A stretch of DNA of 64,000 nucleotides, taken from Thermaurantiacus tibetensis. GTDB taxonomy: Bacteria; Pseudomonadota; Alphaproteobacteria; Sphingomonadales; Sphingomonadaceae. The position numbers and the translations under genes were made by a program. The DNA lies in NCBI RefSeq assembly GCF_015354055.1, contig NZ_JACHTM010000002.1, positions 682,001 to 746,000 of the forward strand, in the 5' to 3' direction. How positions within the stretch are numbered: position 1 is the stretch's first letter; every line of letters starts with the position of its first letter. The notes under the pieces are model-generated. The model made no database searches and was not told the DNA's origin. It saw nothing but the letters and a program-made list of their open reading frames with translations. This document shows, one piece after another, positions 4,964-22,734 of the stretch.

Positions 4964-5428
4964 TCAGGTCGTCGAGAACAGGCCGAGGTCTCGCAGCCGC
5001 GCCACGATGGCCGAGACCGCTGCGCGCGCTTCCGCATCAACCACGGTCCCGCCACTCACCGCTGGCGCCGCCGGAACCGAGCTGGCCGGCACGGGCTCGA
5101 GCCGCCAACTTGTCCCGTCGAACCGCTGGGCTCGTCCCAACTCCACGTTCCAGACGGCAACACCAGCAGCCGGCGCGAAGAAGCGCCATCCGCCAGGCGT
5201 GAGGCAGGCGATGCGCCCCTCCTGTCCCTCCCAGGCGCCCTCGGCGGGTGCGCCCACGATCCAGGCGGAGCCCGCCTGGGCGGACGCGGGCGGCTGCAGG
5301 AGGCCACTCGACTCGACCGCCACGTGGAGCAGGCAGTCGAGCGCCACGATCGCCTCGTTGTGGGTGATGTCCTTCTGGCCCTGTCCCGCCACGAGAAGCG
5401 GCAGGCCGAAGCGGACACTGTTTTCCAT
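4964..5428 (-). CDS. DUF2793 protein at the tail-tip end of the GTA
   Basis: This 154-residue protein belongs to the DUF2793 family found beside tail-tip genes in alphaproteobacterial prophages and GTAs. It shows the signature LPLLVAGQGQKDITHNEAIVALD near the N terminus, then WIVGAPAEGAWEGQEGRIA and GGWRFFAPAAGVAVWN. The C-terminal 30 residues form a small helical end. The family is thought to contribute to tail fibre or receptor-facing structures, but no function is proven. The ATG at 5428 has a clear AGGAG five bases upstream and is preferred to one six codons earlier. It lies 45 bases after the tail-tip gene and ends the cluster. Confidence 0.85.
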   Translation of the reverse strand: MENSVRFGLPLLVAGQGQKDITHNEAIVALDCLLHVAVESSGLLQPPASAQAGSAWIVGAPAEGAWEGQEGRIACLTPGGWRFFAPAAGVAVWNVELGRAQRFDGTSWRLEPVPASSVPAAPAVSGGTVVDAEARAAVSAIVARLRDLGLFSTT

Positions 5429-5473
5429 GGGGCTCCTCCGCAGCATGAACCTTTGGTGGCGGCGCAGGTCCGT

Positions 5474-7639: not shown

Positions 7640-8056
7640 CTACGCCACGCTCCAGATCGACACGATGGCCTCGTCCGGCCGCCACGGCCGCTCGACCACG
7701 CGACGCAGGCCAGCGTGCGCCTCGACGAGACCGTTTCCAGTCGCGACCACGAAGTGCACGAGCGCGGCTTGGGGCTCGGTCAGCACGATGTCGCCAGGGC
7801 GGACATCCCGCCCGTCCACCCTCAGGAGGCCGAGCTGGCCAAGCCGCCGTTCCGCCTCCTCCACCCGATTGGGCCGGAGCGGGTAGTCCTGGACCACATT
7901 GAGACGAACGCCCGCCGCCTCCAGCGCCAGGAGCACGAGGCCCACGCAGTCCACGCCTGCCGGCCCCCGGCCCTGCGGCCGGAACGGTACTCCAACAAGC
8001 GCCCGCGCGGCTGCCGCCACCCGCTCCCCTGTCGCGCCTCCCCCCTCAGCCGACAC
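7640..8056 (-). CDS. GTA NlpC/P60 cell-wall peptidase (gp14-like)
   Basis: This 138-residue cysteine peptidase of the NlpC/P60 family is carried at the tail tip and probably opens the recipient's peptidoglycan. The catalytic Cys is in AGVDCVGLVLLALE and the His is in ALVHFVVATG, with GLVEAHAGLRRVVERPW after it, as in other GTA gp14 proteins. I chose the GTG at 8056, which overlaps the DUF2163 stop by 11 bases. An in-frame ATG at 8074 is a possible alternative. Neither has a clear ribosome site, so translation is probably coupled to the gene before it. Confidence 0.85.
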   Translation of the reverse strand: MSAEGGGATGERVAAAARALVGVPFRPQGRGPAGVDCVGLVLLALEAAGVRLNVVQDYPLRPNRVEEAERRLGQLGLLRVDGRDVRPGDIVLTEPQAALVHFVVATGNGLVEAHAGLRRVVERPWRPDEAIVSIWSVA

Positions 8057-8876
8057 CGTAGCGCACCAGGGCATCGTTGCCCGGGAGGTGCGGCTCGCCG
8101 TCGAACGCCGCCGCATTGCCGAACCGCTCCCGGCAGGTCGCGAAGGTCTTGTCGCACCCCTCCCACAGCCGGAGGCGCAGTGCGTCCCCATCGGCCAAGC
8201 GGAACGGAGCCGAAACGAAGACGCGTGGCCCCTCCACCGCGGCCACCCGTCCATCGAGCCCGGCAAGAGGGCCCGTCAGCACCCGCAGCCGGCCATGCAG
8301 GAACCGCTCGGGCGAATCGAGCGCCGGTACCGGCTCGAGAACGTCGGCCCCGACGGCCACCGCGCGCACGTCGCGCGTCCGCCCCGCCATGTCCACCCCG
8401 CACACCGCGTCGCCAAGCTCGGCCCGGCATGTCGGCGAGACCGCAAGGCGGCGCGCACGCGCGAGGCGGACGAGCGGCGAGAGCAGCTCCGCGGTGAAGC
8501 TGCCGTCCCCGTCCAGCCCCAGCCGCCGCACATCGCCGATGAGTCCCCGCATCAGCATCTGCACGCCCGCCTCCGGCCGCTGCCAGTCGCAGGCAAACAG
8601 CTCGAAGGTCGCACCATTCCATCGTCCGGCGCGCAGATCCGCTTCCGTGATGCGGGCGGAGTCGAGAAAGCCCTCCACCGCCATGCTGTCGGCCTCGAAG
8701 CTCGCCGAGCAGCAAATGGCCGAAGGCGCCATGCCAGCGGCCGGCTCGAACACCAGCCCATCTACCGTGATCCGCCGGTCGTGACTGGTCAGACCAAGCG
8801 CCACGCCATCCTGCCGCATCAGCCGGCAGCACAGACAGATGGTCGCGACCCCGTCGCGAAACCAGCGGCCCGTCAC
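8046..8876 (-). CDS. GTA tail hub protein, DUF2163 family (gp13-like)
   Basis: This 276-residue protein belongs to the DUF2163/TIGR02218 family, which forms part of the hub below the tail tube in GTAs and related siphophages. Features are the N-terminal ATICLCCRLMRQDGVALGLTSHDR, CSASFEADSMAVEGFLDSARITEADLRAGRWNGA, a Cys-rich core (CRAELGDAVCGVDMAG), and C-terminal LWEGCDKTFATCRERFGNAAAFDGEPHLPGNDALV. The Cys residues near the C terminus fit the iron-sulfur-binding hub proteins of this group; that point is inference. ATGA overlap with the gene upstream shows coupling. Confidence 0.9.
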   Translation of the reverse strand: MTGRWFRDGVATICLCCRLMRQDGVALGLTSHDRRITVDGLVFEPAAGMAPSAICCSASFEADSMAVEGFLDSARITEADLRAGRWNGATFELFACDWQRPEAGVQMLMRGLIGDVRRLGLDGDGSFTAELLSPLVRLARARRLAVSPTCRAELGDAVCGVDMAGRTRDVRAVAVGADVLEPVPALDSPERFLHGRLRVLTGPLAGLDGRVAAVEGPRVFVSAPFRLADGDALRLRLWEGCDKTFATCRERFGNAAAFDGEPHLPGNDALVRYGVG

Positions 8877-11218
8877 TGCGGATCCTCGCGGATCTCGACC
8901 AGCGGAACCGACGGCACCGCTCCCGAGCGGAACCCGGTGAGCGACACGTCCAGCCGGTCGACTGCAAAGCGCACCGGCACGTCGAAGCGGAACCCGCAGC
9001 GGATCTCGGCTCCCGGCGCCGGCGGCTCGTCGAAGACCACGAAGCCTCCGGACGCCACCGTCCAGCCGGAGAGGCGTTCGGCGCCTGCAACCGACACGCG
9101 AACGCTCCCCGGCACTGGCCGGGTGATCCGCCGCACCGCCCCGTCGATGTCCGGGTCATAGTCCTTGATGAGCGGAAAACGGGTCTGGAGGCCGTCGCCC
9201 ACCCCGAGGCGCTGGTCGAACGGGGTCGGTGCTCCGCCGTCGAGCGCCGAGCTGCTGTCGAGCGGGTCCTCGAAGCGGAAGCCGATCGCCTGGCCGCGCC
9301 GCGCGCGAAAGAAGCGCAGGAGCGTCCGCAGGTCCTCCTCCGAGCGCACGCCAAGGCCAGCGTCGAAGCGCATGAGCGGCTGGTCCCACATCACGTTCCG
9401 CCGCTCGTGGCCCGAGGGCAGGATGGTCACGTCGGTCAGGAATTCCGGCCCGCTCACCGCATCGAGCCCGATCGCAAGCGGGAACCGCACGTCGTGGAAG
9501 GCCTGCATCGCTTCCTCCTCGAGCGATCCGTGGAACAGCAGCCCGTCCCGGCGGACCTGGGGCCAGGCCCACACGAACACCTCGGTAACGCCGCGGCGCT
9601 CGGCATCGGCCGCCGCCGCCATGATCCGCGGCCACTGGGCCGCCGCATCCCCGCCGCTCAGCACGAACCCGGCGAAATAGTGCATCTCGTCCACGGGGTA
9701 GCCGAGCCGGCCCGCCACCTCCGCCCAGCCGCGCCGGCGGAGGTGCTGGTCGCCCGCAACCACGAGGTCATAGTCCTCGAGCTGGAGCACGTCGAACGCG
9801 GGCCGCGCCCAGCCGGCCGGCATGTTGGCGCGGATGAGCTCGGGGGCTGCCGGGTCGAGCACCTGCGGCGAGAAGAACAGCAGGAAGCTCCGGAACTCCG
9901 GGCCGGCATCGGTGCGCGCCGCGGCGACCAGCGCCGCCGTCGAGGCCGCGAGCTTGCCGCCGAGCCAGTCGAGGAAGGCGATCTCCGCTGCCGAGCGCTC
10001 GCCGCGAATGTCATGGATGACAGGCGGCGCGCTCCCCCTTTCCGCCACGTGCGCGGCAACCGTTGCCGCGTCGTAGAAGCAGGGCCGGTGGTCGGGGCCC
10101 ACCCACCACCAGGGCTCGCCCACCTGGAACCAGGGCCGGAGGCCATTCTCGCGCGAGATGGCGATGAAGGCCCGAGCGACCCGGCCGAGCCACGCCATCG
10201 CGTCGACGTTGGTCGGCGAGAGCAGCGCCGACGGCGGGTCCCAACCGGTCAGCCCGCGCTCGCCGTTCCCCTTCCGCTGCACCCAGGCCGCCGGCGCATA
10301 GGCATCGAACAGCTCGTAGGAGAGCGAGACGATGAGGTCATATCCGTACGCTGCAAGCGCCGCCGCGAACGCCTGGTGCCAGGCGCGGGTGGGCGCGTTC
10401 ATCTCCCGCGAGGGGTCGGCCACGTAGCGCTCGCCATCGAAGACGAGGGCCGGGTAGTGGCTCATCCCCACATAGTGGGTCACCACGCCGCGGTAGCCCA
10501 GCGCCAGCCACTGGTCGACGATCCGCTCGGGCGCCTGATTGTAGCTGTCGTCGAAGCCGCTCGCGATCCGCAGCCGGTGCTCCGGCAGGAAGGCGTCGTT
10601 CACGACCAGCGCTGCGTTCCCGCCCGTCACCGTCACGTCCCTGAGCTCGACCCAGGTCTCGACGGGCGCCGGGAGCGGCCCGTCCGCGTCCGCGTGCCCC
10701 TCGGGCATCAGCGAGATGAACATGCGGTCGATGTCGTTCGGGTGGACCCGCTGCGCCTCGGCCGGCAGCAGAAACCCGGCGTCGAGCGCCGAGAAGGGCA
10801 GCCGGATCCGGGCGTTCGCCGGGCTGCCTTCCGCATAGTTCCACAGCCGCACGTACCAGGTCCGCGGCTGGCCCCCGGCATCACGCCCCTCGATGGTCAG
10901 CGTCGGGCCGTTGACGGCGTCGAGCGCCCTGAGGCCCGGGCCTGCCACCCAGTCGAACGCGAGCGTCACGCCCGCATAGTCCTTCATCGTGCGATAGGCG
11001 CACAGCGGGTGCGACCAGCGGTCCTCCGACTCCCAGATGAGCCCGGCGAGATCCCGCCGGGCGAGGAACGCGAGGTCGACGCGGATGGTCCGGGGCTCGG
11101 GGTTGGTCAGCGCCGCCATCATCGGCCGCGGGAAGTCGACGGTCCACAGCCGCGGCGCGAAGCGCCGCACCACGTCCTCCCTTACCGGGTCGGACCGTTT
11201 CGCAAGACGGAAGGGCAT
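8873..11218 (-). CDS. GTA distal tail protein: barrel-like domain fused to DUF2460
   Basis: This 781-residue protein takes the place of RcGTA gp12, which is only about 200 residues. The C-terminal 210 residues are the DUF2460 domain (FLTDVTILPSGHERRNVMWDQPLMRFDAGLG, RRGQAIGFRFEDPLD, LIKDYDPDIDG). The first 550 residues form a separate region that looks like a carbohydrate-active or TIM-barrel fold: SGFDDSYNQAPERIVDQWLALGYRGVVTHYVG, ISRENGLRPWFQVGEPWWWVG, FDVLQLEDYDLVV, GVTEVFVWAWPQV, with candidate acidic residues in GEPWWW and LEDYD. It could bind or cut a surface glycan, or sheath the tail. The start at 11218 lies 5 bases before the tape-measure stop; a longer reading would run through that gene. 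Confidence 0.85.
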   Translation of the reverse strand: MPFRLAKRSDPVREDVVRRFAPRLWTVDFPRPMMAALTNPEPRTIRVDLAFLARRDLAGLIWESEDRWSHPLCAYRTMKDYAGVTLAFDWVAGPGLRALDAVNGPTLTIEGRDAGGQPRTWYVRLWNYAEGSPANARIRLPFSALDAGFLLPAEAQRVHPNDIDRMFISLMPEGHADADGPLPAPVETWVELRDVTVTGGNAALVVNDAFLPEHRLRIASGFDDSYNQAPERIVDQWLALGYRGVVTHYVGMSHYPALVFDGERYVADPSREMNAPTRAWHQAFAAALAAYGYDLIVSLSYELFDAYAPAAWVQRKGNGERGLTGWDPPSALLSPTNVDAMAWLGRVARAFIAISRENGLRPWFQVGEPWWWVGPDHRPCFYDAATVAAHVAERGSAPPVIHDIRGERSAAEIAFLDWLGGKLAASTAALVAAARTDAGPEFRSFLLFFSPQVLDPAAPELIRANMPAGWARPAFDVLQLEDYDLVVAGDQHLRRRGWAEVAGRLGYPVDEMHYFAGFVLSGGDAAAQWPRIMAAAADAERRGVTEVFVWAWPQVRRDGLLFHGSLEEEAMQAFHDVRFPLAIGLDAVSGPEFLTDVTILPSGHERRNVMWDQPLMRFDAGLGVRSEEDLRTLLRFFRARRGQAIGFRFEDPLDSSSALDGGAPTPFDQRLGVGDGLQTRFPLIKDYDPDIDGAVRRITRPVPGSVRVSVAGAERLSGWTVASGGFVVFDEPPAPGAEIRCGFRFDVPVRFAVDRLDVSLTGFRSGAVPSVPLVEIREDPQ

Positions 11219-11222
11219 GGGC

Positions 11223-11780
11223 TCAGCGCTCCGCCTGAACGAGCGCCTGGCGTACGGCGCGCGCCACCTGCCGCCCCGTCTCGGCGAGGAACTGCGGCTG
11301 CCGCGCGCCCGCCCCGGCCGCACCCCCCTGCACCTGCACGGAGAGATTGACGACCGTCGCCGCGCGCGCGCCCGCGGCTTCGATCCGCCCACTCGCGGTC
11401 GGCACGAAGAGTTCCGGCCCCGCCTCGCCCACGAGATAGGCCCGCCCGGGGCTGACGGGTCCGCCCGTCGCCCGGCCAGGCAGGCCGGCTCCCGCAAGCC
11501 CGGCGAGCATCCCGGAAAGCCCGCCGCCGCCGAACTCGATCCTGAGCGCGGCCGCGGCGATCTCGCCGAGGGCGCGCGCCGCCACCTTCGCCAGATCCTC
11601 GAACTCCATCCGCCCGCCGCGCGCCGCGCGCGCCAGCGCCGCCTCGATTCCGCGTCCGGCAGCCTCCGCTCCCGCGCCAAGCCCGGTCTCGAGCGTCTGC
11701 CGCATCTCGAGCACGTCGCGCCGGAAGGCGTCCATGTCCGCCCTCACGGCCACCGCCATCGAGTCGAACCCGTCATCCAT
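11223..11780 (-). CDS. GTA tail tape measure protein (gp11-like)
   Basis: This 185-residue protein is a short tape measure that sets tail length and is released when DNA is delivered. Residues 1-75 are helical (AVRADMDAFRRDVLEMRQTLE, ALARAARGGRMEFEDLAKVAARALGEIAAAALRIEF). A Gly-rich hydrophobic middle follows (GGGGLSGMLAGLAGAGLPG), then the conserved block ATGGPVSPGRAYLVGEAGPELFVPTASGRI. By the phage rule of about 0.15 nm per residue, the tail would be under 30 nm. The start overlaps the upstream tail-chaperone gene by 8 bases. Confidence 0.85.
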   Translation of the reverse strand: MDDGFDSMAVAVRADMDAFRRDVLEMRQTLETGLGAGAEAAGRGIEAALARAARGGRMEFEDLAKVAARALGEIAAAALRIEFGGGGLSGMLAGLAGAGLPGRATGGPVSPGRAYLVGEAGPELFVPTASGRIEAAGARAATVVNLSVQVQGGAAGAGARQPQFLAETGRQVARAVRQALVQAER

Positions 11781-11967
11781 CGGGAAACTCCCGCATCAGC
11801 CGCTCCAGATCCGCGCGCACCGCCGCCGGGATCTGGCCGCCGAACCGACCCTCCAACGCCAGCACCAGGTCGCAGACGGTCGCCGCCCAGAACTGGTCCG
11901 GAGTCCAGCCAAGCCGCCCGGTGGCCAGCCGCGCTGCTGCCAGCGCGAACTCCGAAAACCGCGTCAT
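11773..11967 (-). CDS. GTA tail assembly chaperone (TIGR02216-like)
   Basis: This 64-residue protein is the small gene before the tape measure in GTA and prophage clusters (RcGTA g10.1 position). The family pattern is clear: AARLATGRLGWTPDQFWAATVCDLVLALEG. Proteins in this position act as tail assembly chaperones binding the tape measure. ATGA overlap links it to the preceding gene. It is only visible inside a longer out-of-phase open frame, so automatic callers may misplace the start. Confidence 0.85.
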   Translation of the reverse strand: MTRFSEFALAAARLATGRLGWTPDQFWAATVCDLVLALEGRFGGQIPAAVRADLERLMREFPDG

Positions 11968-12278
11968 GCCCCGCCGAACACGGCGGCAAGGAGCGCACGA
12001 TAGGCCGAGAGCACCCGCCGGAGCCCGGCCTCGGCGAGCGCCGCCTCGAAGGCGGCGCGCTCGCCAAAGGCGTCGCCCGTGCGGCAATGCCACAGGAGCG
12101 CCGCCGCATCGGCCAGCCGCACGTCGCCACCCGCCACCCGCTCGAGGAGGGCCGGCAGGCTCCCGAGCTCCTGCTCGGCCGCCACCAGCGCCGCGAAGCT
12201 CGGCCGCAGGCGCACCGCTCCCGAGGCGAGCGCCAGCTCCACCTCGCCCCGGAGCGGGTTCGCGGAAGCGGCGTTCAC
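11964..12278 (-). CDS. GTA tail chaperone / gp10-like protein
   Basis: This 104-residue protein matches the GTA-family gp10 that follows the major tail gene. The hallmark is NPLRGEVELALASGAVRLRPSFAALVAAEQELGSLPALLERVAGGDVRLADAAALLWHC, then a helical C terminus. In tailed phages this position encodes the first part of the tail assembly chaperone pair, which here is two overlapping genes and not a frameshift product. ATGA overlaps occur at both ends. Confidence 0.87.
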   Translation of the reverse strand: MNAASANPLRGEVELALASGAVRLRPSFAALVAAEQELGSLPALLERVAGGDVRLADAAALLWHCRTGDAFGERAAFEAALAEAGLRRVLSAYRALLAAVFGGA

Positions 12279-12682
12279 AGCGCCTCCACCGGGCCCGAGC
12301 TCTCGAGCGAAACCGTGTAGCTCCGCTCGCCGTTGAAGTCGCCGGCATAGTCGAGGCGCACCACCTGGAAGGTCCCGCGCAGCCGCTCCCCGCCTTCGAA
12401 GCTCACCTCGAACCGGTCGAGCGCGCCCGAGAGCGCCCGGCTCTTCAGCTGCAGCTCCGCCGCCGAGCCGGTGAACACCCCGGCTCCCGAGATGGAGACC
12501 GCGCGCACTCCGGCCCCGCCCAGGAGCTCGCGCCAGCCGTTCGAGCCCTTGTTGGTCACCACCACCTGCTGCGCGCTGATGCTGAGCTGGGTGGTCCTGA
12601 GCCCGGCCACGGTCCGGAACTGCTCCGGCTCGCCGCCGTCGGAAAGCTTCAGAAGAAAGGCCGCGCCACTCTCGACCGCCAT
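12275..12682 (-). CDS. GTA major tail tube protein, TP901-1 family (gp9-like)
   Basis: This 135-residue protein forms the tail tube. It has the TP901-1 major tail pattern: AFLLKLSDGGEPEQFRTVAGLRTTQLSISAQQVVVTNKGSNGWRELLGGAGVRAVSISGAGVF, with later LRGTFQVVRLDYAGDFNGERSYTVSLESSG. The ATG at 12682 is preferred to one nine codons upstream because GGGAG sits seven bases before it and MAVESGAAFLLKL aligns with family N termini. It is coupled by ATGA overlap to gp10. Confidence 0.92.
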   Translation of the reverse strand: MAVESGAAFLLKLSDGGEPEQFRTVAGLRTTQLSISAQQVVVTNKGSNGWRELLGGAGVRAVSISGAGVFTGSAAELQLKSRALSGALDRFEVSFEGGERLRGTFQVVRLDYAGDFNGERSYTVSLESSGPVEAL

Positions 12683-12686
12683 GACA

Positions 12687-13082
12687 TCACTCCCTGATCG
12701 TGCGCGCAAGGAACTCGAGGCGCCCCTCGGTCCAGCTGCGCGGGTTGCGCTTCACCAGAGACCGCAGCAGCCGCAGGGCCACGATCCTGAGGCCCTCCCC
12801 CGCCCGCGGCATCCCGAGGACCGCCGCCTCGATCTCGCCCATCAGCGCCTTGGCGCCCGCCATGCCGTCCCGGCCGATCCAGACCGAAACGGTCAGCCGG
12901 TGCTCGTGGCCGCCGCCGTCCTTCCAGGCCCAGGGCTGCATGCTGTCCGGCCCGAGGCCGATGAAGGGGGGCCGCGCGTCGGCCGGCGGCCCGTCATGCA
13001 CCGCCACTCCCGCCGCGCGCAGCGGCGGATGGGCCTCGAGGGCTGCCACCAGCAGCCGCTGGAGCCTGAGGCTCGCGTCCAT
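12687..13082 (-). CDS. GTA tail terminator, DUF3168 family (gp8-like)
   Basis: This 131-residue protein belongs to the DUF3168 family, which caps the tail tube and joins it to the head. It shows LRLQRLLVAALEAHPPLRAAGVAVHDGPPADARPPFIGLGP and HEHRLTVSVWIGRDGMAGAKALMGEIEAAVLG. The ATG at 13082 has GGAG eight bases upstream; an upstream TTG in frame is less likely. It sits between the head-closure gene and the tail tube gene as expected. Confidence 0.9.
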   Translation of the reverse strand: MDASLRLQRLLVAALEAHPPLRAAGVAVHDGPPADARPPFIGLGPDSMQPWAWKDGGGHEHRLTVSVWIGRDGMAGAKALMGEIEAAVLGMPRAGEGLRIVALRLLRSLVKRNPRSWTEGRLEFLARTIRE

Positions 13083-13109
13083 CCCGTCTCTCCGCAAGCA
13101 TGGGGGCGC

Positions 13110-13445
13110 TCAGCCCCCGAACTCCTCGGCCACCACCATCAGCCGGTCCGGCGCGGCCGGGTCGCGGTCGATCCCCGTCACCCGGAGATCGAGGTCGCGC
13201 CACCTGAGGCGCATCCCGAGCGCCACTTCCGCACTGCTGCGCAGCATGATGCGCCACCGCCGGAACGGCACCCGCGTCTCCGCCACCAGGGTGGAGAGGT
13301 TGAGCGCATCCACCGGCCGCATCTCGGCCCAGTGCTCGCCCACCGTGCGCCACTGCTCGTGCGAGCCCCCGGCGCCATCGGGCGCATGGACGGCCCGCTC
13401 CAGCCGCACCCGCTGCTTCAGCCGCCCGGCAATCTCCGCAGTCAT
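13110..13445 (-). CDS. GTA head closure protein (gp7-like, SPP1 gp16 family)
   Basis: This 111-residue head-tail stopper closes the portal channel after packaging. It has the usual layout AGRLKQRVRLERAVHAPDGAGGSHEQWRTVGEHWAEMRPV, then LVAETRVPFRRWRIMLR and LRWRDLDLRVTGIDRDPAAPDRLMVVAEE. It lies 10 bases downstream of the connector gene. Length and position match the family. Confidence 0.92.
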   Translation of the reverse strand: MTAEIAGRLKQRVRLERAVHAPDGAGGSHEQWRTVGEHWAEMRPVDALNLSTLVAETRVPFRRWRIMLRSSAEVALGMRLRWRDLDLRVTGIDRDPAAPDRLMVVAEEFGG

Positions 13446-13455
13446 CCTCCCCTCC

Positions 13456-13989
13456 TCACGAAAGCCGCAGCCGGCGCCACGGCGCCAGCATCTGGCAGAC
13501 GCTCGCGGGCAGGCCGGCCTCCGCGCTCCCGTCCCGGTGGGCGTGCAGGTGACCGACGGTCCGCAGCACCGCGAGCCGCAGGGGATCGGGAAGCCCGTTC
13601 CAGTCCTCGGCCATCCCCGCCCGGTAGCGCGCCCGCCGCAGCCGCCCGGGGCCGCGCAGCAGCCTCACCGTGCCGTCACCGGCAGGCCCCAGGGCGAGTC
13701 GCCAGTCCCCGGGCTCCACCGCCACCTCCCCACCCGTCGCATCGGTCGCGAAGAGCTCGAGGAGCGCGATGACCGGCCCGGCCGACAGCCGCACCTCGGC
13801 GCCGGCAGATGCGAACCGCTCCTCGACGGCGCGCGCCACCAGGAGCCGCCCGAGCCATGCCTCCACAAGGCCGGTTGCCGCCCGCATCAGGCCGGCAAGC
13901 ACCGCATCCTCGGCATCCGTCTCGATCCGGAGATAGGCCTTGGCCTCGCCCAGCGGCGCCACCGGCGGCGCTGCCTCCATCGTCAGCAT
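13456..13989 (-). CDS. GTA head-tail connector (gp6-like)
   Basis: This 177-residue adaptor binds below the portal. It matches the phage gp6-like/phiE125 gp8 connector family: VAPLGEAKAYLRIETDAEDAVLAGLMRAATGLVEAWLGRLLVARAVEERF, a central beta region with EPGDWRLALGPAGDG, then YRAGMAEDWNGLPDPLRLAVLRTVGHLHAHRDG. The ATG at 13989 shares one base with the upstream stop (TGATG), indicating coupling; an internal ATG nine bases on is possible. Confidence 0.9.
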   Translation of the reverse strand: MLTMEAAPPVAPLGEAKAYLRIETDAEDAVLAGLMRAATGLVEAWLGRLLVARAVEERFASAGAEVRLSAGPVIALLELFATDATGGEVAVEPGDWRLALGPAGDGTVRLLRGPGRLRRARYRAGMAEDWNGLPDPLRLAVLRTVGHLHAHRDGSAEAGLPASVCQMLAPWRRLRLS

Positions 13990-14264
13990 CAGCGGTTCTC
14001 CACCCTCACCACGATCGAGCGCTCGTCGATCGCGCCATCCGAGAAGGTCACCCGGTTGCGGACGGCATAGACCTGGCCGGGCGCGCCGCCGGTCAGCCAC
14101 ACCAGCGTCGCCGTCCCTTCGATCGCCGGGCTCTCGGCCACGAGGCCGCCGGCCACCGCCGGCTCCACCGCCCATTCGCTTGCCGCGAGCGCCACCCCGC
14201 CCTCGGTCCAGTCCGACCAGTCGAAGCGGTAGTCGAGGCGTGCATCGGGGTCCTTCAGAAACAT
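13989..14264 (-). CDS. Phage fibre-tail adaptor-like protein
   Basis: This 91-residue beta-rich protein resembles the small fibre-tail adaptor proteins of prophages: FLKDPDARLDYRFDWSDW, ESPAIEGTATLVWLTGGAPGQVYAVRNRVTFSDGAIDERSIVVRV. The pattern is that of one immunoglobulin-like or BppU-type domain. It is not part of the canonical RcGTA set and travels with the two genes before it. Its likely job is to attach the neighbouring beta-helix fibre to the particle, which is inference from position and resemblance. Confidence 0.7.
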   Translation of the reverse strand: MFLKDPDARLDYRFDWSDWTEGGVALAASEWAVEPAVAGGLVAESPAIEGTATLVWLTGGAPGQVYAVRNRVTFSDGAIDERSIVVRVENR

Positions 14265-14301
14265 CGTCCGCTCCTCCGTCCGCCAGGGGGCCGTCGCCCG
14301 C

Positions 14302-14670
14302 TCACACCGGGTCGGCGATCTCGATCGCCCAGCCGGCGATCGTCACCGTTCCCCCCGGCGCGACCGCCTGGTCGGGGCAGGTGGTCACGTAGAGGAGCCG
14401 TGAGGCTGCCGTGTCGAGGAGCGCGACATGGTTCGCCGTCCCGCCCGCCAGCACGGGCAGGCCCGACTTCGCGGCCACCGTCACCTTCCGGCCCGAGACG
14501 TCGCCAGCGCCAAGGGCGAAATCCGCCGGCGCCATCGGCGCCTCGGCCAGCCGGCCCGCCATCGCCTCGGCGAAGGTCGCGGGCTGGGCGGCCAGCGCCA
14601 CCATCCGGTCGGCGGCCGCCACCGCCTGAAGTGCAGCATCGAGAACCGTGGGAGAGACCCACTTCGCCAT
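14302..14670 (-). CDS. Hypothetical protein of the inserted fibre module
   Basis: This 122-residue protein has a helical N terminus (VSPTVLDAALQAVAAADRMVALAAQPATFAEAMAGRL) and a beta-rich C-terminal half (GRKVTVAAKSGLPVLAGGTANHVALLDTAASRLLYVTTCPDQAVAPGGTVTIAGWAIEIADPV). Similar small proteins occur beside fibre-tail adaptors in prophages. It may be a head decoration or fibre base, but I cannot assign a function. It lies between the beta-helix gene and the adaptor on the same strand with short gaps of 37-39 bases. Confidence 0.65.
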   Translation of the reverse strand: MAKWVSPTVLDAALQAVAAADRMVALAAQPATFAEAMAGRLAEAPMAPADFALGAGDVSGRKVTVAAKSGLPVLAGGTANHVALLDTAASRLLYVTTCPDQAVAPGGTVTIAGWAIEIADPV

Positions 14671-14709
14671 CGTCCGTCTCCTCTTCGCGGGGCCCCGGCA
14701 GCAGGCCCG

Positions 14710-17514
14710 TCAATCCCGCTCGGGGCGCGCGGTGCGCAGGTCGCGCGGCACCCTTGTCACCCGCATGCCACGCGTGCCGCCTCCTGACCCGGGTGCGAAA
14801 CCCAGAAACGCCGCGAGGCTTGCCAGCGCGTGGCGCGCCGACGTCGCCGCGGCTGCGAAGGCCACGCCGAGCGCCGGGGTCGTCGCCCGGTGCGCATGCC
14901 GTCCCGAACCGGTCCCGAGCGTGGCCTCCGGCGGCCCCATGGGCTCGGCCTCGATCGCGCCCGCCGTCCATGTCGCGCCGGTCCTGAGCGTGCCGGCGCG
15001 GTCGGCATCCACCTGGGCGGTCGTTGCACGGCCGAGGAGCGGGCTTCCGGCAAGCGGCCGGTAGTCGCCGTTGCCGGCGCCGCCATCGGCCACCCCGGCC
15101 GGCGCCGAAAACCGCGGCCATGCGACGTTGCCCGGCGGCACCGACGACACCGCCTCCACCGGCGACACGATGCAGCGCAGGCCGCGGTTCTCGATGGTCG
15201 CGCCGTTCAGTGAGCCGAGGACGATCCGCCAGCCGTCGACGTTCCCCTCGTTCAGGTGCCCGAAGAACACCTGCCAGCCCTGCACGAGGTGCCCGCGGTA
15301 GCCGTGGGCTCCAGGTCCTCGCGCGCTGGCCAGCGAGCCGGTGAAGAACTCGCCGTGCTTCGAGACGATCCGGTCATAGTAGTTGTTGGCGATCCGGCAC
15401 CCGGCGTAGCTGTTGTAGCGCGTCAGCGCATTCTCGAGCGTCGTCCAGCCGGGCTGGTTGTACATGTGGTTGGCGCGGTCGCCGATGAACGTGTTGTGCT
15501 CGATGATCGCGCCCCGCATGTCGAACTCGGTGGCGTTGAGCTCGCCCTGCTGGTAGGCAGGGCCATCGGCACCGCCGGACTTCTCGAACAGGTTGCCCAC
15601 CACGTTGAGGCGCACGCTCTTCAGGCGCCCGTCCGTGTCCGTGTAGGTCGGCGTCTGGAACGCCCAGGTCGCCGCGTGCACGTGCCGGAGGTCGTTGAAC
15701 CACCAGTGCACGTCCTCGCGGCAGCGTGGGCTCGCGGTTCCATGGAGCGCCGGCGCGAAGAGCGGCGTCTGGGTCGAGGCAGGCAGCGCCTTCGCGCAGC
15801 CGATGACGACCGGCGAGGCGAAGCTCTGGCGGGCCACGCACGAGCGCGCCACCATCGTTGCGCAGCTCAGCTGGGTGAACCCGGCCGAGACCAGGTCCAT
15901 GGTCATCGCGGTCGCCCAGTTCGGCATGTCGCTTCCGGTCGTCGGGTTCACCCCGAAGGTCGAAAGCGGCGTTGCCGGGTTGTCGTCGCGGATGAGCGTG
16001 CCTGCGTCGAACCAGTGGTAGCGGCCGGCAGCGGTCGGAAATCCGACGTTCCGCATCCGGAACTCGAGGTTGCGCGTGCGCAGCCGCGCATGCCCGCCGT
16101 AGTTGTGGGTGCCAGACGTCGCCCCGCGGATCACTGCACCGGCGGCACCCTGCCAGGTGATCCAGGTCTCGTTCGAGGTCCCCGAAACGGCGGTGGCCGT
16201 GCTCCAGTCGTGGGTCCCGGCCACGAAGAAGATCTCGGCGCCGTCCATGGCATTGGCGCTTGCGGCAACCCCGTTCGCGGCCGGAAGCGTGCGGGAGAGC
16301 CAGCGCACGACCGAGCCGGCCACTGCCTGGTTCGCGCAGCGGTCGGCCACGGGAAGCGCGAGCGCGCTGGCCCGCGCCTCCTCCGGCGTGTTGCCCAGCC
16401 CGGCAAACCGCTCGGCCTCGTTGCGGCTCGTCACGTTGCTCGTCCGCGTGCCGGCGGGGTCCACCACCACGCACACGTAGCGGTAGTAGGTCGAGGGCGC
16501 GTGCCCCAGCGGGTTGGTGCCGCCGCCGGGGTTGGCCTGCGTCGTGTAGCCGTAGCGGGTGCCCGTCCGGTCATAGGCGAGGAGGAGCGGCCGCTCCGCT
16601 TCGGCATTTGCACCTGCACTCGGGGCAGACGCGCCCGGATGCAGCGCGGAAGGCGCCGCAGTCGCCGGGTCGAGGGCGCCCGAGGAATGGCGCACCGGCC
16701 CGAACCAGGGGAAAAGCGTCCAGTGAAGCGCGATCAGTCCGTCGCCGAGGTAGGTGCCGGGCTCGCCCTCCACCTCCAGGCTCACCTGCCCGGTCCACAG
16801 GCGGACGGAGTCGCCGTAGCGGGTGGAGGTGCCGATCGCGAGCCACGTTGGCACGCTCCGCCGGGTCCCGTCGGTCGCGATGATCCTGACCGCCGCCAGC
16901 CCCGCCTTGCCTTCGGGCAGGCCATGCGCGGCAACCAGGTCCACCTGCACGGCGTTGGCTGGCGCGGCCGGCGTGCCGCGGATGGCCTCGTAGGGCACGG
17001 TTGCCCAGCGCGCCGAGGGCAGCTCGAGCGGCGTCGTCGAGCCGTTGGTCGCCGCCACCACCTGGTCGCTTGCTGCCCCGGTCCGCCAGCCGGCGCGAAA
17101 GCGCACCGAGACCGTCTCGCCCGGCGCAACCGGCTTGTGCAGCATCAGGCGGATTTGGCGGATGCCTCCGCCGAGATCCTGCTCGCCAAGCGGCCGGTTG
17201 TTGGGCTTGAACGCCTCGCCCGAGAAGCCCGAGGGCACGGGCGTGCCGGGGAAGTCGGGGTAGGGGGCGTAGCGCAGCGAATGGGCCACCACCTCGCGCG
17301 TGCGCACGCCCGGCACTGCCGCGCCGCCGGGGCCGCGCCCATGGCCAGGGCCCGAGACGGTCGCCACCACGCGGGCCGTTGCTTCGGTCTGGTCCACCGC
17401 GTTGGGGCCGGGGAAGAGCGCGAAGTCGGCCTCGAGCGAAGGCGCGCCCACCGCGCAGTTCACGGCAAGTGTCCAGCCGTCGGCTTCCACGGCGCAGGCG
17501 GTGACAAGTCCCAT
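14710..17514 (-). CDS. Large beta-helix protein inserted between capsid and connector (candidate head spike)
   Basis: This 934-residue protein has no counterpart in the canonical GTA order. Residues 1-270 are beta-rich (HKPVAPGETVSVRFRAGWRTG, TWLAIGTSTRYGDSVRLWTGQ). An Ala/Ser-rich linker follows (near 285-305). About 390-830 look like a right-handed parallel beta-helix: VRLNVVGNLFEKSGG, RGAIIEHNTFIGDRANHMYN, GCRIANNYYDRIVSKHGEFF, ending GDYRPLAGSPLLGRATTAQVD, the closing motif of many beta-helix proteins. The last 60 residues are Ala-rich and basic. There is no signal peptide, fitting particle assembly in the cytosol. AGGA lies seven bases before the ATG. A glycan-binding head fibre or spike is the leading guess; a glycan-cleaving enzyme is possible. 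Confidence 0.75.
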   Translation of the reverse strand: MGLVTACAVEADGWTLAVNCAVGAPSLEADFALFPGPNAVDQTEATARVVATVSGPGHGRGPGGAAVPGVRTREVVAHSLRYAPYPDFPGTPVPSGFSGEAFKPNNRPLGEQDLGGGIRQIRLMLHKPVAPGETVSVRFRAGWRTGAASDQVVAATNGSTTPLELPSARWATVPYEAIRGTPAAPANAVQVDLVAAHGLPEGKAGLAAVRIIATDGTRRSVPTWLAIGTSTRYGDSVRLWTGQVSLEVEGEPGTYLGDGLIALHWTLFPWFGPVRHSSGALDPATAAPSALHPGASAPSAGANAEAERPLLLAYDRTGTRYGYTTQANPGGGTNPLGHAPSTYYRYVCVVVDPAGTRTSNVTSRNEAERFAGLGNTPEEARASALALPVADRCANQAVAGSVVRWLSRTLPAANGVAASANAMDGAEIFFVAGTHDWSTATAVSGTSNETWITWQGAAGAVIRGATSGTHNYGGHARLRTRNLEFRMRNVGFPTAAGRYHWFDAGTLIRDDNPATPLSTFGVNPTTGSDMPNWATAMTMDLVSAGFTQLSCATMVARSCVARQSFASPVVIGCAKALPASTQTPLFAPALHGTASPRCREDVHWWFNDLRHVHAATWAFQTPTYTDTDGRLKSVRLNVVGNLFEKSGGADGPAYQQGELNATEFDMRGAIIEHNTFIGDRANHMYNQPGWTTLENALTRYNSYAGCRIANNYYDRIVSKHGEFFTGSLASARGPGAHGYRGHLVQGWQVFFGHLNEGNVDGWRIVLGSLNGATIENRGLRCIVSPVEAVSSVPPGNVAWPRFSAPAGVADGGAGNGDYRPLAGSPLLGRATTAQVDADRAGTLRTGATWTAGAIEAEPMGPPEATLGTGSGRHAHRATTPALGVAFAAAATSARHALASLAAFLGFAPGSGGGTRGMRVTRVPRDLRTARPERD

Positions 17515-17549
17515 GAAGCGATCCTGGGCGAAGGGGTTCGAAACGAAGG

Positions 17550-17574
17550 GGGGCCGCCGCGCCGCGGCGGCCCC
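17550..17574 (-). terminator. Hairpin after the capsid gene (probable terminator or attenuator)
   Basis: An 11-bp perfect GC stem (arms 17550-17560 and 17564-17574, 3-base loop) lies 13 bases beyond the capsid stop. On the minus transcript it is followed by CCTTCGTTTCG, a weak U-rich tail. It would reduce read-through into the beta-helix gene and raise capsid dosage. Some GTAs are known to need an antiterminator to pass internal terminators; whether this hairpin acts that way is untested. Confidence 0.55.
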
Positions 17575-17586
17575 GGGGCCGAAGCA

Positions 17587-18744
17587 TCAGCTGGCCGAGA
17601 AGCGCATCAGCTTGATCGCCTCGCTGTTGACGAGCGCCCCGCCCACGCGCCGGGTCGCGTAGAAGTGCACGAACGGCTTGTTCGAGAAGGGGTCGCGCAG
17701 CACGGTCGTCTCCGCCCGCTCGGCGATCGTGTAGGCCGTCCGGAACTGGCCGAAGGCAATCGAGAGCGAGTTGGCGGCGATGTCGGGCATCGCATCCGCC
17801 TCGATCACCGGGTAGCCGAGGAGGGTGGCCGGCTGGTCGGCGGCCAGCGCCGGCTGCCAGATGAACTGGCCGGTCGAGTCCTTGAACTTGCGAATGACGG
17901 AGAGGGTGTTCGCGTTCATCACCCACACCGCCCCCTGCCGGTAGGGCGCGCGCAGCGCATGGACGAGGTCGATCAGCCGGTCCGAGGGGTTGGCGGCCGG
18001 GAAGGCGCCAGCTGCACCCGAGGGCACCACCTGCACCGTCCCGAACGGCCGCGTCGCGTCGGGGGTCGTCGCGACCGGGTAGGTCAGGAAGCCGCGCGGC
18101 TGGTCGGTGCCCGTCCCCGTCACGAACGCCGTCCCCTCGGCCCGGGCGAAGTCGAGCGCGATCTCGTTCGCAAGCCAGGCCTCCACGTCGAACATCGCGT
18201 CATCGAGGATCGCCTGGGTCGCCGCCGGGTTGGCGTAGAGCTCGCCCATCGGGATGGCCACTTCCTGGAAGGTCGGCGTGTTGGTCTCGGGCCGGCCGGC
18301 CGACTCGCTCACCCAGCCGCTCGCAAAGCCTCCGGTCGTGATGAGCCGGCGGTAGCTCGCGCTGCCCACCTTCACCACGTTCGCCACCGAGCGGATCGGC
18401 GAGATGGACCGGAGCGTCGATTCGATCATCTGGTCGATCTCGCGCGGCACCGCCACGCCGCCGTCGCCCGGCACATTGCCCTGGAAGCGCTTCACCTCGA
18501 AGCCGCCGTCGAGGCCCTTCCGGAGATAGCCGTCGGCAAAGGCCGCCCGCTCGGGGTCGGCGCGCGTGCCACCCAGCGCAGGCCGGGCGCGCTCCACCAG
18601 CTGGCGGCTCAGCGCCGCCAGTTCCGACTTCACCGCCGCCACCGTCTCCTTCATCGTCGCGATCTCGGCCGGGTCGATCTCGCTTGCCACGAACGCCGGC
18701 GCCGCCGGCGCCGCGAGGGCGTCGGCCTTGGTCTCGTAGGTCAT
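17587..18744 (-). CDS. GTA major capsid protein, HK97 fold (gp5-like)
   Basis: This 385-residue protein forms the head shell. Residues 1-70 are a helical delta/scaffold segment (EIATMKETVAAVKSELAALSRQLVERA), which the prohead protease would remove. The HK97 core follows: GGVAVPREIDQMIESTLRSISPIRSVANVVKVGSASYRRLI, GWVSESAGRPETNTPTFQEVAIPMGELYANPAATQAILDDA, NEIALDFARAEGTAFVTGTGTDQPRGFL, WVMNANTLSVIRKFKDSTGQFIWQP, GYPVIEADAMPDIAANSLSIAFGQFRTAYTIAER. Spacing to the protease is 66 bases, with GGAG eight bases before the ATG, and a hairpin follows the stop. Confidence 0.96.
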   Translation of the reverse strand: MTYETKADALAAPAAPAFVASEIDPAEIATMKETVAAVKSELAALSRQLVERARPALGGTRADPERAAFADGYLRKGLDGGFEVKRFQGNVPGDGGVAVPREIDQMIESTLRSISPIRSVANVVKVGSASYRRLITTGGFASGWVSESAGRPETNTPTFQEVAIPMGELYANPAATQAILDDAMFDVEAWLANEIALDFARAEGTAFVTGTGTDQPRGFLTYPVATTPDATRPFGTVQVVPSGAAGAFPAANPSDRLIDLVHALRAPYRQGAVWVMNANTLSVIRKFKDSTGQFIWQPALAADQPATLLGYPVIEADAMPDIAANSLSIAFGQFRTAYTIAERAETTVLRDPFSNKPFVHFYATRRVGGALVNSEAIKLMRFSAS

Positions 18745-18810
18745 CGTCTGCTCTCCACGCTTGCAGTCAGGAACAGGGGGACCGGGCCACCGGCCAATCC
18801 CTCAAGGCGG

Positions 18811-19224
18811 TCACGCGTCGGCCACGATCGCCGTCACGCGCGCGCGCTCGTGCATCGGCAGGGTCACCACCGAACATTCGAGAAGCTCGAGCTTCAGAAG
18901 CTCCCGGCCGCCGCCGGGAACGGGGCGCGCCGTCTTCACCCGGTAGCCGAACGAGAGGCCGTCGACCGCCCGCGCCCGCATGAGCGCCAGCGCGTCGCGC
19001 CCGTCGCGGCAGTCGGCACTGACCAGCGCCTCCATCCGCAGGCCATGCGCATCCTCGACGAGCGAGACCACCCGGCCGATCGGCCGCTCCACGTCGTGCT
19101 GCCAGAGCAGCGGCACGTCGGCGCGGTTGCCGGCAAAGGCGCCGCGGCGCACCACGTCGCCCGAGCGGTCCGGGGTGTCGAAGCGGCTCACGTAGCCGCG
19201 CACCCTGACGCTTGCGCCGCTCAT
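18811..19224 (-). CDS. GTA prohead protease, HK97 family (gp4-like)
   Basis: This 137-residue serine protease cleaves the capsid N terminus during head maturation. It has VRVRGYVSRFDTPDRSGDVVRRGAF, PLLWQHDVERPIGRVVSLVEDAHGLRMEALV (with the catalytic His in QHD), DGLSFGYRVKTARPV (Ser in GLSFGY) and LELLECSVVTLPMHERARV. The start at 19224 overlaps the portal stop by four bases (ATGA). An in-frame reading to 19827 would run inside the portal gene and is rejected. Confidence 0.94.
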   Translation of the reverse strand: MSGASVRVRGYVSRFDTPDRSGDVVRRGAFAGNRADVPLLWQHDVERPIGRVVSLVEDAHGLRMEALVSADCRDGRDALALMRARAVDGLSFGYRVKTARPVPGGGRELLKLELLECSVVTLPMHERARVTAIVADA

Positions 19225-20378
19225 GCCGCGTCTCCCGCAACCGCCGCGTCCGCGCCGCCCGGCGCCTCGCCCGTCCGCCCGCGCCGGCCCCAGCCAAGGA
19301 GCTCGCGCTTCTCGTCCACGCTCAGGAAGTCGGCGGCCGCCACGTGCCGCCACAGCGCTTCGCGGTCGGCCCAGAGCGCCGGAATGGCGTCGAGGTCCGG
19401 CTCGATCCTGAGGCCCGGCCACCAGCGCGAAAGCTGGCGCGAGAAGCCGTCGGTGATCCGGCCGAGAAGCGGCAGCACCGTCAGCCGCCACAGCGCCACA
19501 TTGGCCTGGGCATAGTTGGCGTAGGTCGCATCGCCCGGAAGTCCGAGGAGCATCGGCGGCACGCCGAAGGCGAGCGCCACCTCGCGCGCGGCCGCCTCCC
19601 GTGCCCGGCCGAAGTCGAGCTCGGCCGGGGTCAGCGCGATCGGCTGCCACCTGAGCCCGCCCTCGAGCAGCATCGGCCGCCCGGCGTTGACCGCGCCCTG
19701 GAAGGCCCCCTCCACTTCCTCGCGCAGCCGCTCGAACTGCTCGGCGGAAAGCGGGGTGCCGTCCTTCGTCTCGTGGACGAGCGCGCCCGAGGGCCTCGCC
19801 GCGTTGGCGATGAGCGAGCGGTTCCACCGCGCCGCGGCATTGAGGAGCGCAACCGCATCCGCCGCGGCACCGAGGCAGCCAAGGCCGAGATGGTCGTCGA
19901 GCGGGTTCACCATCCGCAGGTGGAGGAGCGGCGGGCGCTCCCCATCCCAGTCGGCCGGAAAGCGCTGCGCCCGCCCGCCCGCCTTGTGGAGATAGGCGCG
20001 GGGCCAGCCGTCCGCGTCGAGCTCGATCTGCACCCGCTCGGGCCGCAGGGGCCAGGCTTCGGCGGGCCGCCCGGCGGCATCGAGCCCGAACACCACGTAG
20101 GCGTTGCCATGGAGCAGCAGGTGGGTCGCGATCGTCTCGCGCAGCATGCCCGAGAGCAGCGCGAGGGCGGGGTGGTCCGCGCCTGCCACCACGAGGGGCG
20201 CGTGGCCGGCGGCCTCGGCCACCAGCCGCACCGCCCGCTGGGCGATGGCGTTGCGGCCATAGGCTTCCTCCACCCGGGCCTCGTAGCTCGCCGGAAGCTC
20301 GGTCGCGCCCGCCCGCAGGCCGGCGGCCGCCGGCCGCGGGAAGGCCATGTCCTTGCGCTGGAAGACCGGCCAGCGCAT
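19221..20378 (-). CDS. GTA portal protein, HK97 family (gp3-like)
   Basis: This 385-residue protein forms the dodecameric DNA entry ring at one head vertex. Hallmarks are SYEARVEEAYGRNAIAQRAVRLVAEAA, LLHGNAYVVFGLDAAGRPAEAWPLRPERVQIELD, RMVNPLDDHLGLGCLGAAADAVALLNAAARWNRSLIANAARPSGAL, FGVPPMLLGLPGDATYANYAQANVALWRLTVLPLLGRI. The start at 20378 shares one base with the preceding stop (TGATG). Length and motif order are normal. Confidence 0.95.
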   Translation of the reverse strand: MRWPVFQRKDMAFPRPAAAGLRAGATELPASYEARVEEAYGRNAIAQRAVRLVAEAAGHAPLVVAGADHPALALLSGMLRETIATHLLLHGNAYVVFGLDAAGRPAEAWPLRPERVQIELDADGWPRAYLHKAGGRAQRFPADWDGERPPLLHLRMVNPLDDHLGLGCLGAAADAVALLNAAARWNRSLIANAARPSGALVHETKDGTPLSAEQFERLREEVEGAFQGAVNAGRPMLLEGGLRWQPIALTPAELDFGRAREAAAREVALAFGVPPMLLGLPGDATYANYAQANVALWRLTVLPLLGRITDGFSRQLSRWWPGLRIEPDLDAIPALWADREALWRHVAAADFLSVDEKRELLGWGRRGRTGEAPGGADAAVAGDAA

Positions 20379-20572
20379 CAGCGGCGCTCCGTCGGCGGCG
20401 CCGGCGTCGGGCCCACCGCGATCAGTCCGCCGCCGACGATGAACGAGATCGCCTGGGCAAGGTGCATCGCCTTCATCGGGTCGCTGCCCACCGCCACCGC
20501 GATCATCGCCAGGCCTACCCAGGTCGAGCCTTCGCGGGCCCGCATCGCCAGCCACGTCAGCAGTCTGTCCAT
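20378..20572 (-). CDS. Small holin-like membrane protein within the GTA cluster
   Basis: This 64-residue protein has a basic N terminus (MDRLLTWLAMRAREG), two hydrophobic segments (STWVGLAMIAVAVG and AQAISFIVGGGLIAVGP) joined by a short loop, and a charged tail (PPTERR). Size and layout are like two-segment phage holins, whose STWxGL opening is common. In RcGTA the lysis genes lie elsewhere, so a holin-like gene between terminase and portal is uncommon. GAGG lies about eight bases before the ATG. It could instead be a head-assembly membrane anchor. No endolysin is adjacent. Confidence 0.65.
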   Translation of the reverse strand: MDRLLTWLAMRAREGSTWVGLAMIAVAVGSDPMKAMHLAQAISFIVGGGLIAVGPTPAPPTERR

Positions 20573-20649
20573 GTCATGGTCCTCTTCGTCTGGCGCCCGC
20601 CGGCGCCGGGAGGTCGGGCCGCGCGCGCTGTCGCTGCCGCGGGCGGCGC

Positions 20650-21972
20650 TCAGATGCTGCGCAGCGTCGGCGCCGGCGGGCGCGGCGCCAGCATGAGTTC
20701 GGTCAGTGCCCAGACCAGCGCGTCGGCCCGGTCGGGCGAGCTTCCCGGGCCCCGGTAGGCTCCGCCCTGGATGAGGCCGCACAGCTGGTCCTCGAGTTCG
20801 GGGAAGGGCCGCGCATGGGCGACGAGGCCGCGCGCGTAGAGCGTGGCCACCGGCTCGGCGCGGGCCACCTTGCCGATGCTGGCCCTGACCGGCTTCAGCG
20901 GCAGCCGCGGGTGGCCATGGGCTTCGAGCACCGACTCGATCATCCGCCCGCCCTGGTTCACCTCGACGACGATGCAGTCCGCGCCATGCTCGGCGTGGGC
21001 GCGCACCACGGCGCTTGCCCAGGCGTCGGGCGAGGCATCGGGCAGGCTCGCGTCCGTGAGCACATAGGCCTTGCCGGCCGAATCCCGTCCCGCCACCACG
21101 ATCCCGCAGGTCCCCGGCCCGGCCGGCGGGTCCACGCCCACCACCACGCGGTCGAGCGGCCCCTCGGGCGCCATCCGGCAGCGTTCGAGGCCATCCCGGC
21201 TCCACAGCGCGCCCTCGATCCGCTCGAGGATCTCGCCCGAGAGCTCCTGCCGGCCGAGCGCGGTGCCGCCGTAGCCTGCCTCCATGTCGGCGAGGAACGA
21301 GGCCGGCAGGTTCAGCCGGTTGTCGAAGGTGGACCCGCGGGTCATGACCACGCCGTCCATCTTCGTCAGCGCGCGCAGGAAGGCGGTCGGCCGCGGCGTC
21401 GTCGTCACCACCACCTGCGGCCGCGCGCCGAGCCGCAGGCACATCCGCAGGTTGTCCCAGGCCGGCCGCGGCCGGTTCCAGGCGGCGATCTCGTCGCACC
21501 AGGCGGCATGGAACTGCGGGCCCCTCAGCGCATCGGGCTCGCCAGCCGAGAAGAGGGTCGCCACTGCCCCGCTCGGCCAGTGGAGCTCGCGCTTCGAGCG
21601 CAGGAAGAGCGGCCGGTTCTCCGGGGGCGCGGTCGCAAGGATGCCCGATTCGCCGCGCACCATCACCGTCTCGGCGTCATGAAGCGTGGCGCCAACGAGG
21701 GCGATCCGGCAGCCCGGGGTCATGAGCGCGGTCCGGTTCACCCACTCGGCGCCTGCGCGGGTCTTGCCGAAGCCGCGCCCTGCGAGGATGAGCCAGATCG
21801 CCCAGTCGCCTTCGGGGGCCAGCTGCGCGGGCCGCGCCCGGAACCGCCAGTCGTTCAGGAGACGCCACTGGTCCTTAAGCGGCACGCCGGCGAGACAGGC
21901 CGCGCGCGCCTCGGGCGGGAGGAGCGCCAGCCGCTCGATGAGCGAGAGCGACGGCGCCGGCAGCTCGGTCAT
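20650..21972 (-). CDS. GTA terminase large subunit (gp2-like)
   Basis: This 440-residue DNA packaging motor has an ATPase half with Walker A-like AGRGFGKTRAG near residue 65, CRIALVGATLHDAETVMV, Walker B/catalytic WCDEIAAW near 160 and coupling motif VVVTTTPRPT. The nuclease half has VVVGVDPPAGPGTCGIVVAGRD, DCIVVEVNQGGRM and SPDRADALVWALTELML, whose Asp and Glu residues fit the RNase H-like metal site. The ATG at 21972 is used; a GTG nine codons upstream (21999) sits next to GGGGAGG and is an alternative. A promoter-like region lies about 200 bases upstream. Confidence 0.95.
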   Translation of the reverse strand: MTELPAPSLSLIERLALLPPEARAACLAGVPLKDQWRLLNDWRFRARPAQLAPEGDWAIWLILAGRGFGKTRAGAEWVNRTALMTPGCRIALVGATLHDAETVMVRGESGILATAPPENRPLFLRSKRELHWPSGAVATLFSAGEPDALRGPQFHAAWCDEIAAWNRPRPAWDNLRMCLRLGARPQVVVTTTPRPTAFLRALTKMDGVVMTRGSTFDNRLNLPASFLADMEAGYGGTALGRQELSGEILERIEGALWSRDGLERCRMAPEGPLDRVVVGVDPPAGPGTCGIVVAGRDSAGKAYVLTDASLPDASPDAWASAVVRAHAEHGADCIVVEVNQGGRMIESVLEAHGHPRLPLKPVRASIGKVARAEPVATLYARGLVAHARPFPELEDQLCGLIQGGAYRGPGSSPDRADALVWALTELMLAPRPPAPTLRSI

Positions 21973-22060
21973 CTTCACCGACAGTCCTTCGCGGGTCACC
22001 TCCCCGGTCGCGCCCTGCCCTGATACCGGCGTGGCCGGCTGCCAGGGGGCGGAAAGGCGG

Positions 22061-22702: not shown

Positions 22703-22734
22703 GGCAGTCTCCTCTCGACAGTGCCGCGCGGTCT

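Follow-up and report, generated by a model that had tools for sequence, protein, structure and literature searches.

We find that the gene transfer agent (GTA)-type head-tail cluster of Thermaurantiacus tibetensis carries, between its capsid and connector genes, a three-gene cassette that is probably a receptor-binding fiber cassette of Sphingomonadales GTAs, mounted on the particle neck and replacing the capsid-vertex head spikes used by the GTA known as RcGTA. The analysis concerned a window of 64 kb (64,000 nucleotides) of the 2.75-Mb source genome (G000), and all coordinates are positions within that window. The cassette consists of a large variable protein (P934) and two small mounting parts (P122 and P91), and it probably decides which cells the particle sticks to. 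In the arrangement that we propose, P91, whose gene overlaps the connector gene gp6, would form or join a collar around the connector; P122, with its neck-whisker-like predicted fold, would link this collar to the fiber; and P934 would be the variable outer part, docked via an Arg-rich C-terminal tail, with a long body that would bind glycans, perhaps cleave them, and select recipient cells.

Gene order in the capsid-gp6 slot

The upstream border of the slot is the gene of the HK97-type major capsid protein (17587..18744, minus strand; PF05065, E value 1e-88; TIGR01554), and its downstream neighbor is gp6, the head-tail connector or neck adaptor (13456..13989, minus strand; TIGR02215, phrog_442). 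Between the two lie, likewise on the minus strand, P934 (14710..17514), an intact open reading frame (ORF) for a variable, presumably receptor-binding or glycan-active fiber/spike protein of 934 residues; P122 (14302..14670), a small conserved protein and candidate linker of adaptor and fiber; and P91 (13989..14264), a gp77-type fiber-tail adaptor. All three ORFs that the original prediction had described on one strand between capsid and connector are therefore present and uninterrupted. Their spacing is operon-like (gaps capsid/P934/P122/P91 of 72, 39, and 37 bp), the stop codon of P91 overlaps the start of gp6 (CGC TGA TG, a TGATG junction), and 77 of the 86 clusters examined share this start/stop overlap. 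The GC content of the three genes (0.71-0.74) and their GC content at third codon positions (0.89-0.90) are like those of the neighboring GTA genes.

The order P934-P122-P91 was found again in four other genomes (G003, G004, G042, and G159), and the arrangement is thus not due to chance; many IMG/VR contigs, mostly 14-18 kb long and GTA-like, have the same gene order. Carriers of the module among the relatives are Sphingomonadaceae, other Sphingomonadales or near Alphaproteobacteria; isolates that have the cassette include Polymorphobacter glacialis, Glacieibacterium frigidum, and Sandarakinorhabdus cyanobacteriorum. As P122 occurred in only 2 of 385 genomes of a class-wide sample, the module looks confined to the order and its near relatives. 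We found no account of the capsid-gp6 slot in the accessible parts of the alphaproteobacterial GTA literature, a search that did not cover Viswanathan 2017.

The small proteins P91 and P122 point to the neck

P91 had been described as fiber-tail adaptor-like, and profile searches confirmed this identity: it matches PF23148 ("podophage GP4 fiber-tail adaptor gp77") with an E value of 8.3e-30 and 103.6 bits (cut-off 27), the alignment spanning the full domain (profile positions 1-84 of 84), and it also matches PDB chain 8jou_D (E value 6e-7). By its sequence, P91 is clearly a gp77-type fiber-tail adaptor. In phage GP4, gp77 reportedly encircles the head-tail adaptor as a ring and carries the fibers. 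In Burkholderia phage BcepMigl, a gp77-type adaptor gene lies between a pectin-lyase-like gene and tail-fiber genes. A second, weak gp77-type match (E value 2.4e-7) was noticed outside the window, in a 262-residue open frame of the source genome (G000:C16:11440-11688).

For P122, sequence searches gave no match, and the hits to small terminases (Pfam Phage_Nu1, E value 0.17; PDB terminase small subunit, E value 0.28) are at chance level and were rejected. An AF2 model computed from an alignment of 17 homologues reached a pLDDT of 96.2, and its predicted fold is neck-whisker-like: ranking by Foldseek and a second aligner placed Sf14 neck chain 9c39_K first (Z 10.0 over 106 residues), followed by the Bas63 connector chain 9mt4_L (Z 9.9), the tail fiber of phage 7-7-1 (9rkv_A, Z 8.3) and, more weakly, 8jou_a, a chain of the GP4 fiber I/adaptor complex (Z 6.0), a score that unrelated rows in this search also reach. 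Methyltransferase rows among the matches (Z ~6) were treated as background. Predicted viral proteins with a P122-like fold include minor tail and collar-fiber proteins, and in Roseobacter phage CRP-6 a P122 homologue lies upstream of two tail-fiber genes.

Taken together, the adaptor identity of P91, the overlap of its gene with gp6 and the predicted fold of P122 indicate that the small proteins point to the neck, and from sequence and model we infer that the cassette is located there. The same two proteins might instead fix P934 to the tail tube or the baseplate, given that P122-like folds also occur in tail-fiber, minor-tail, and baseplate proteins and that a tail-sheath-like fusion protein of the cluster could carry fibers. 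However, the P91 gene overlaps gp6, and the cassette lies among head and neck genes rather than tail-tip genes, so that we consider attachment to the tail or baseplate unlikely.

P934 is the variable part of the cassette

To place the slot in context, capsid neighborhoods of Sphingomonadales relatives were compared in 48 GTA-type clusters. The gap between capsid and gp6 is near-empty (47-352 bp) in 26 of them, holds P122 plus P91 in 16 and P91 without P122 in three, and is filled by something else in two; one remained unclassed. When 54 clusters with all parts were compared pairwise and binned by capsid identity, P122 and P91 were recognizable in at least 99% of the pairs at every capsid distance, whereas for the large protein the recognizable share was 10% at 50-58% capsid identity and 42-50% at 58-90%, and above 90% every pair was recognizable. 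Some of the alternative large slot proteins carry carbohydrate esterase (SASA) or Laminin-G/ConA lectin domains or match tail-fiber families. The retention of the small proteins, the swapping of the large one, and the esterase and lectin alternatives thus support the original prediction in so far as the cluster holds a receptor-binding or glycan-active module, which is moreover variable, but not its placement on the head; P934 itself may be able to cleave glycans.

P934 is 58% identical to its counterpart in G003, a genome of the same genus; capsid, portal, and terminase reach 83-87%. A common rate of conservation across all GTA genes, which the original prediction had named as speaking against it, is therefore not seen. 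Three other proteins are also fast, namely gp6 (54%), gp14 (56%), and gp13 (62%). The divergence of gp6 (13456-13989), at 54% identity versus 85% for the capsid, is as fast as that of the spike, and gp6 is perhaps co-evolving with P91.

The module had been thought to be inserted. On a midpoint-rooted tree of the 48 GTA-type clusters, it is found across the deep lineages, and its absence is concentrated in one large clade, where P91-only remnants occur; hence, loss fits better than gain, and the module is probably ancestral and lost elsewhere. Two clusters with P91 alone in the slot (L017 3616-3960 and L024 6192-6464) appear to be remnants after fiber loss. In L085, what looked like a fusion in one ORF was rejected, P122 being encoded there in a different frame.

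Proteins of the P934 family, of which at least 27 were found in capsid-gp6 slots, are 860-994 residues long and 24-60% identical. The N-terminal ~400 residues (16315..17514, minus strand) are, in a block-by-block comparison of the 27 members, somewhat better conserved than the middle and are also recognizable, by alignment, in head-spike-linked relatives. We found no match of P934 in Pfam, PHROGs, NCBIfam, PDB sequences or phage records, nothing in a contig scan with P934 alone as query, and, using hhalign, no relation of the P934 family to the pectin-lyase-like protein of BcepMigl. For a beta-helix fold, there are hints only: a weak NosD match in one of the 27 members (E value 0.016), a choice-of-anchor Q domain at the end of a distant relative (E value 0.0009, below the cut-off), and three rung-like N-x-F/Y motifs found by eye in P934 (GNLFEK, HNTFIG, and NNYYDR). 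The sole structure model was built from four sequences and had a mean pLDDT of 42, so that the beta-helix of the original prediction is putative; a fold search with this model yielded antibody-like noise and was discarded.

A secreted host enzyme sitting in the cluster by chance would account for the GDYRPLAGSPLLG...GAIEAE ending of P934, as this ending is common among secreted beta-helix proteins. Yet P934 has no hydrophobic signal-like N-terminus when inspected by eye, as had been claimed from the outset, all full-length homologues checked lie in the capsid-gp6 slot, and distant homologues stand beside spike base genes or have phage-fiber-like N-termini, which together make this explanation scarcely credible.

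Near its C-terminus, P934 carries the motif R-x-L-R-[VI]-x-x-[DE]-x-R (residues 918-930; 14725..14763, minus strand), a candidate docking tail defined by the P934-family profile. This profile was built from the P934 family only and applied to 38 proteins, with p values calculated against shuffled tails; six unrelated P122/P91-linked slot proteins matched it (p <= 0.004 each), the matches ending 3-14 residues before the C-terminus. The C-terminal extension is not present in spike-base-linked relatives of P934. On this sequence pattern, the Arg-rich motif may be a docking tail. P122 and the tail together may provide the connection of the fiber, whose target would be a glycan and which would affect recipient range.

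A head-spike base and the P122/P91 anchor rarely co-occur

The original prediction had placed the module on the head. If P934 sat at a capsid vertex like the RcGTA head fibers and bound the capsule of recipients, its gene would be expected, as is the case, to adjoin the capsid gene, and it would be in keeping that related bodies follow the spike base gene in other genomes. Specifically, distant P934 relatives occur elsewhere in other genomes, several of them directly after an NF048002-family gene (G052, G239, and G282), and the relatives G059, G054, and G305 carry an RcGTA-type head-spike base gene plus fiber in the capsid-gp6 slot instead of P122/P91 (L019 6087-8470, L015 6094-7915, and L177 9151-11819, respectively); in G305, a P934 relative and the spike base share one slot. 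In contrast, searching the source genome for the spike base NF048002 gave no match at an E value <= 0.001 (6 candidates scored), and P934 travels with a fiber-tail adaptor and a whisker-like protein. In RcGTA, a peptide of the Gly/hydrophobic type docks the fiber in the base pentamer (PMC7296036). Fibers behind a spike base often start with such a peptide, such as MGRLGFGFG, MATIGLGLSLTL, or MRFGFGYG, the first two being from base-linked relatives, but it is not found in P934, which starts MGLVTACAVEADGW. With no spike base detected, no base-type N-terminus and both small proteins pointing to the neck, P934 on the head is less likely, and we regard a head-vertex spike as rather improbable.

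P934-like bodies were also seen on other, phage-fiber-like N-termini (L182 9845-12688 and L179 8173-10641), with a weak T7 tail-fiber match in L182, and in G310 a distant P934 relative has a weakly T7-fiber-like N-terminus.

Of 398 genomes of the order, 37 have P122 and 80 have the spike base; only one has both, compared with 7.4 expected under independence (p 0.002, kinship ignored). The 47 GTA-type clusters of close relatives that could be classed gave a similar picture: near-full-length matches placed the spike base in 7 genomes, partial ones raised this number to 9, and none of the 7 (or 9) had P91 (p 0.03 to 0.007, no correction for phylogeny). We put forward, as a tentative view that may well prove wrong, that one slot takes either a neck-anchored cassette (P122 plus gp77-type adaptor, C-terminal fiber tail) or a capsid-anchored one (spike base, N-terminal Gly/hydrophobic peptide), and that related fiber bodies have switched from one anchor to the other, by which a domesticated particle would keep retargeting to changing recipients.

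Several observations weigh against a neck-mounted receptor-binding cassette. Its location at the neck is derived from homology and a predicted fold, the particle itself being predicted from genes, and the structure prediction of P934 from four sequences was of low confidence. Several P122/P91-linked large proteins do not carry the C-terminal motif, the divergence of P934 is matched by that of gp6 and gp14, and in G368 the capsid gene, a P934 homologue and P122 recur but P91 was not detected. Finally, the statistics on mutual exclusion take no account of phylogeny.

Comparison with known systems

The closest parallel for the mounting parts is the gp77 adaptor/fiber I complex of the Ralstonia podophage GP4 (PF23148/8jou), which shares with the cassette a P91 homologue and an adjacent fiber gene and one chain of which P122 weakly resembles (8jou_a). 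In the present case, however, the particle is that of a siphophage-like GTA, it has a single large variable protein, and the adaptor ring is putative. In predicted fold (Z ~10), P122 resembles a chain of the Sf14 neck, perhaps of its whiskers, and one of the Bas63 connector, but those belong to myophages and no sequence similarity was found. According to the available part of the Sf14 report (PMC11821841), two proteins build the whiskers and an adapter protein attaches them to the neck, as suggested here; that part describes no large fiber on top in these systems.

The RcGTA head spike (base Rcc01079, fiber Rcc01080; NF048002) is similar in its likely recipient-binding role, and relatives pair this base with related fiber bodies, even within the capsid-gp6 slot, but the window has an in-cluster cassette with P122 and P91 instead of the base gene and the base-binding N-terminus. 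RcGTA also has TspA (Rcc02623), a GTA-borne spike acting on polysaccharide (PMC13420450), which is the type of activity suspected for P934. TspA is encoded outside the cluster, is detachable and is reported to be confined to Rhodobacterales, with no homologue in non-Rhodobacterales alphaproteobacteria (PMC13420450).

The cassette bears on how GTAs select their recipients and on the reasons for which hosts retain them, both open questions. RcGTA has its receptor-binding genes at scattered chromosomal sites; the cluster described here, also in named isolates, contains a recognition cassette that is complete and swappable, and recipient range and kin-directed gene transfer could therefore be tested by removing one block. 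The related fiber bodies suggest that the anchor has been exchanged between neck and capsid vertex.

The cluster is of the GTA type

The whole head-tail cluster (4964..21999, minus strand; defined by ORFs and families, with the same gene set in relatives) runs from the terminase gene (20650-21999) to a DUF2793 gene (4964-5446). It has the conserved gene set and order of the RcGTA type, with an HK97 capsid and Rcc01695-type (DUF2460) and Rcc01698-type proteins, the former being fused to a tail-sheath-like part, and also encodes portal, protease, connector, stopper, tail terminator, and tail tube. It differs from RcGTA in its capsid-gp6 genes and in the N-terminal tail-sheath-like fusion. The flanking genes (HTH regulator, dcd, cysH, and DUF6456) are syntenic in G003 and G004, a comparison within the genus, as expected of a vertically kept element; by sequence, the cluster thus appears to have a fixed chromosomal place and vertical inheritance.

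An ordinary prophage, with the module as its normal tail fiber and no special link to gene transfer, would fit with the occurrence of P122 homologues in phages and larger phage-like contigs. Indeed, five contigs of 43-54 kb (L119, L128, L144, L151, and L154) have P122 homologues, with P91 not detected, and P122 is therefore also a protein of larger phage-like elements. Nevertheless, the GTA-type gene set, the same host-gene flanks in G003 and G004, the DUF6456 gene directly upstream, and the fact that no integrase was noticed among the ORFs read make a prophage very improbable.

The terminase gene is immediately preceded by a DUF6456 gene and a divergent helix-turn-helix (HTH) gene (22205-23397), which are syntenic in the genus and possibly constitute a GTA activator/regulator pair. 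We take DUF6456 to belong to GafA/GafZ, the activator of GTAs. A paper on Caulobacter names GafZ, without mention of DUF6456. The fused protein (8873-11680) consists of the DUF2460 (Rcc01695-type) distal tail protein joined to a non-contractile tail-sheath N-terminal domain and a TIM barrel (PF23844 and PF23845), and the same fusion is also present in relatives.

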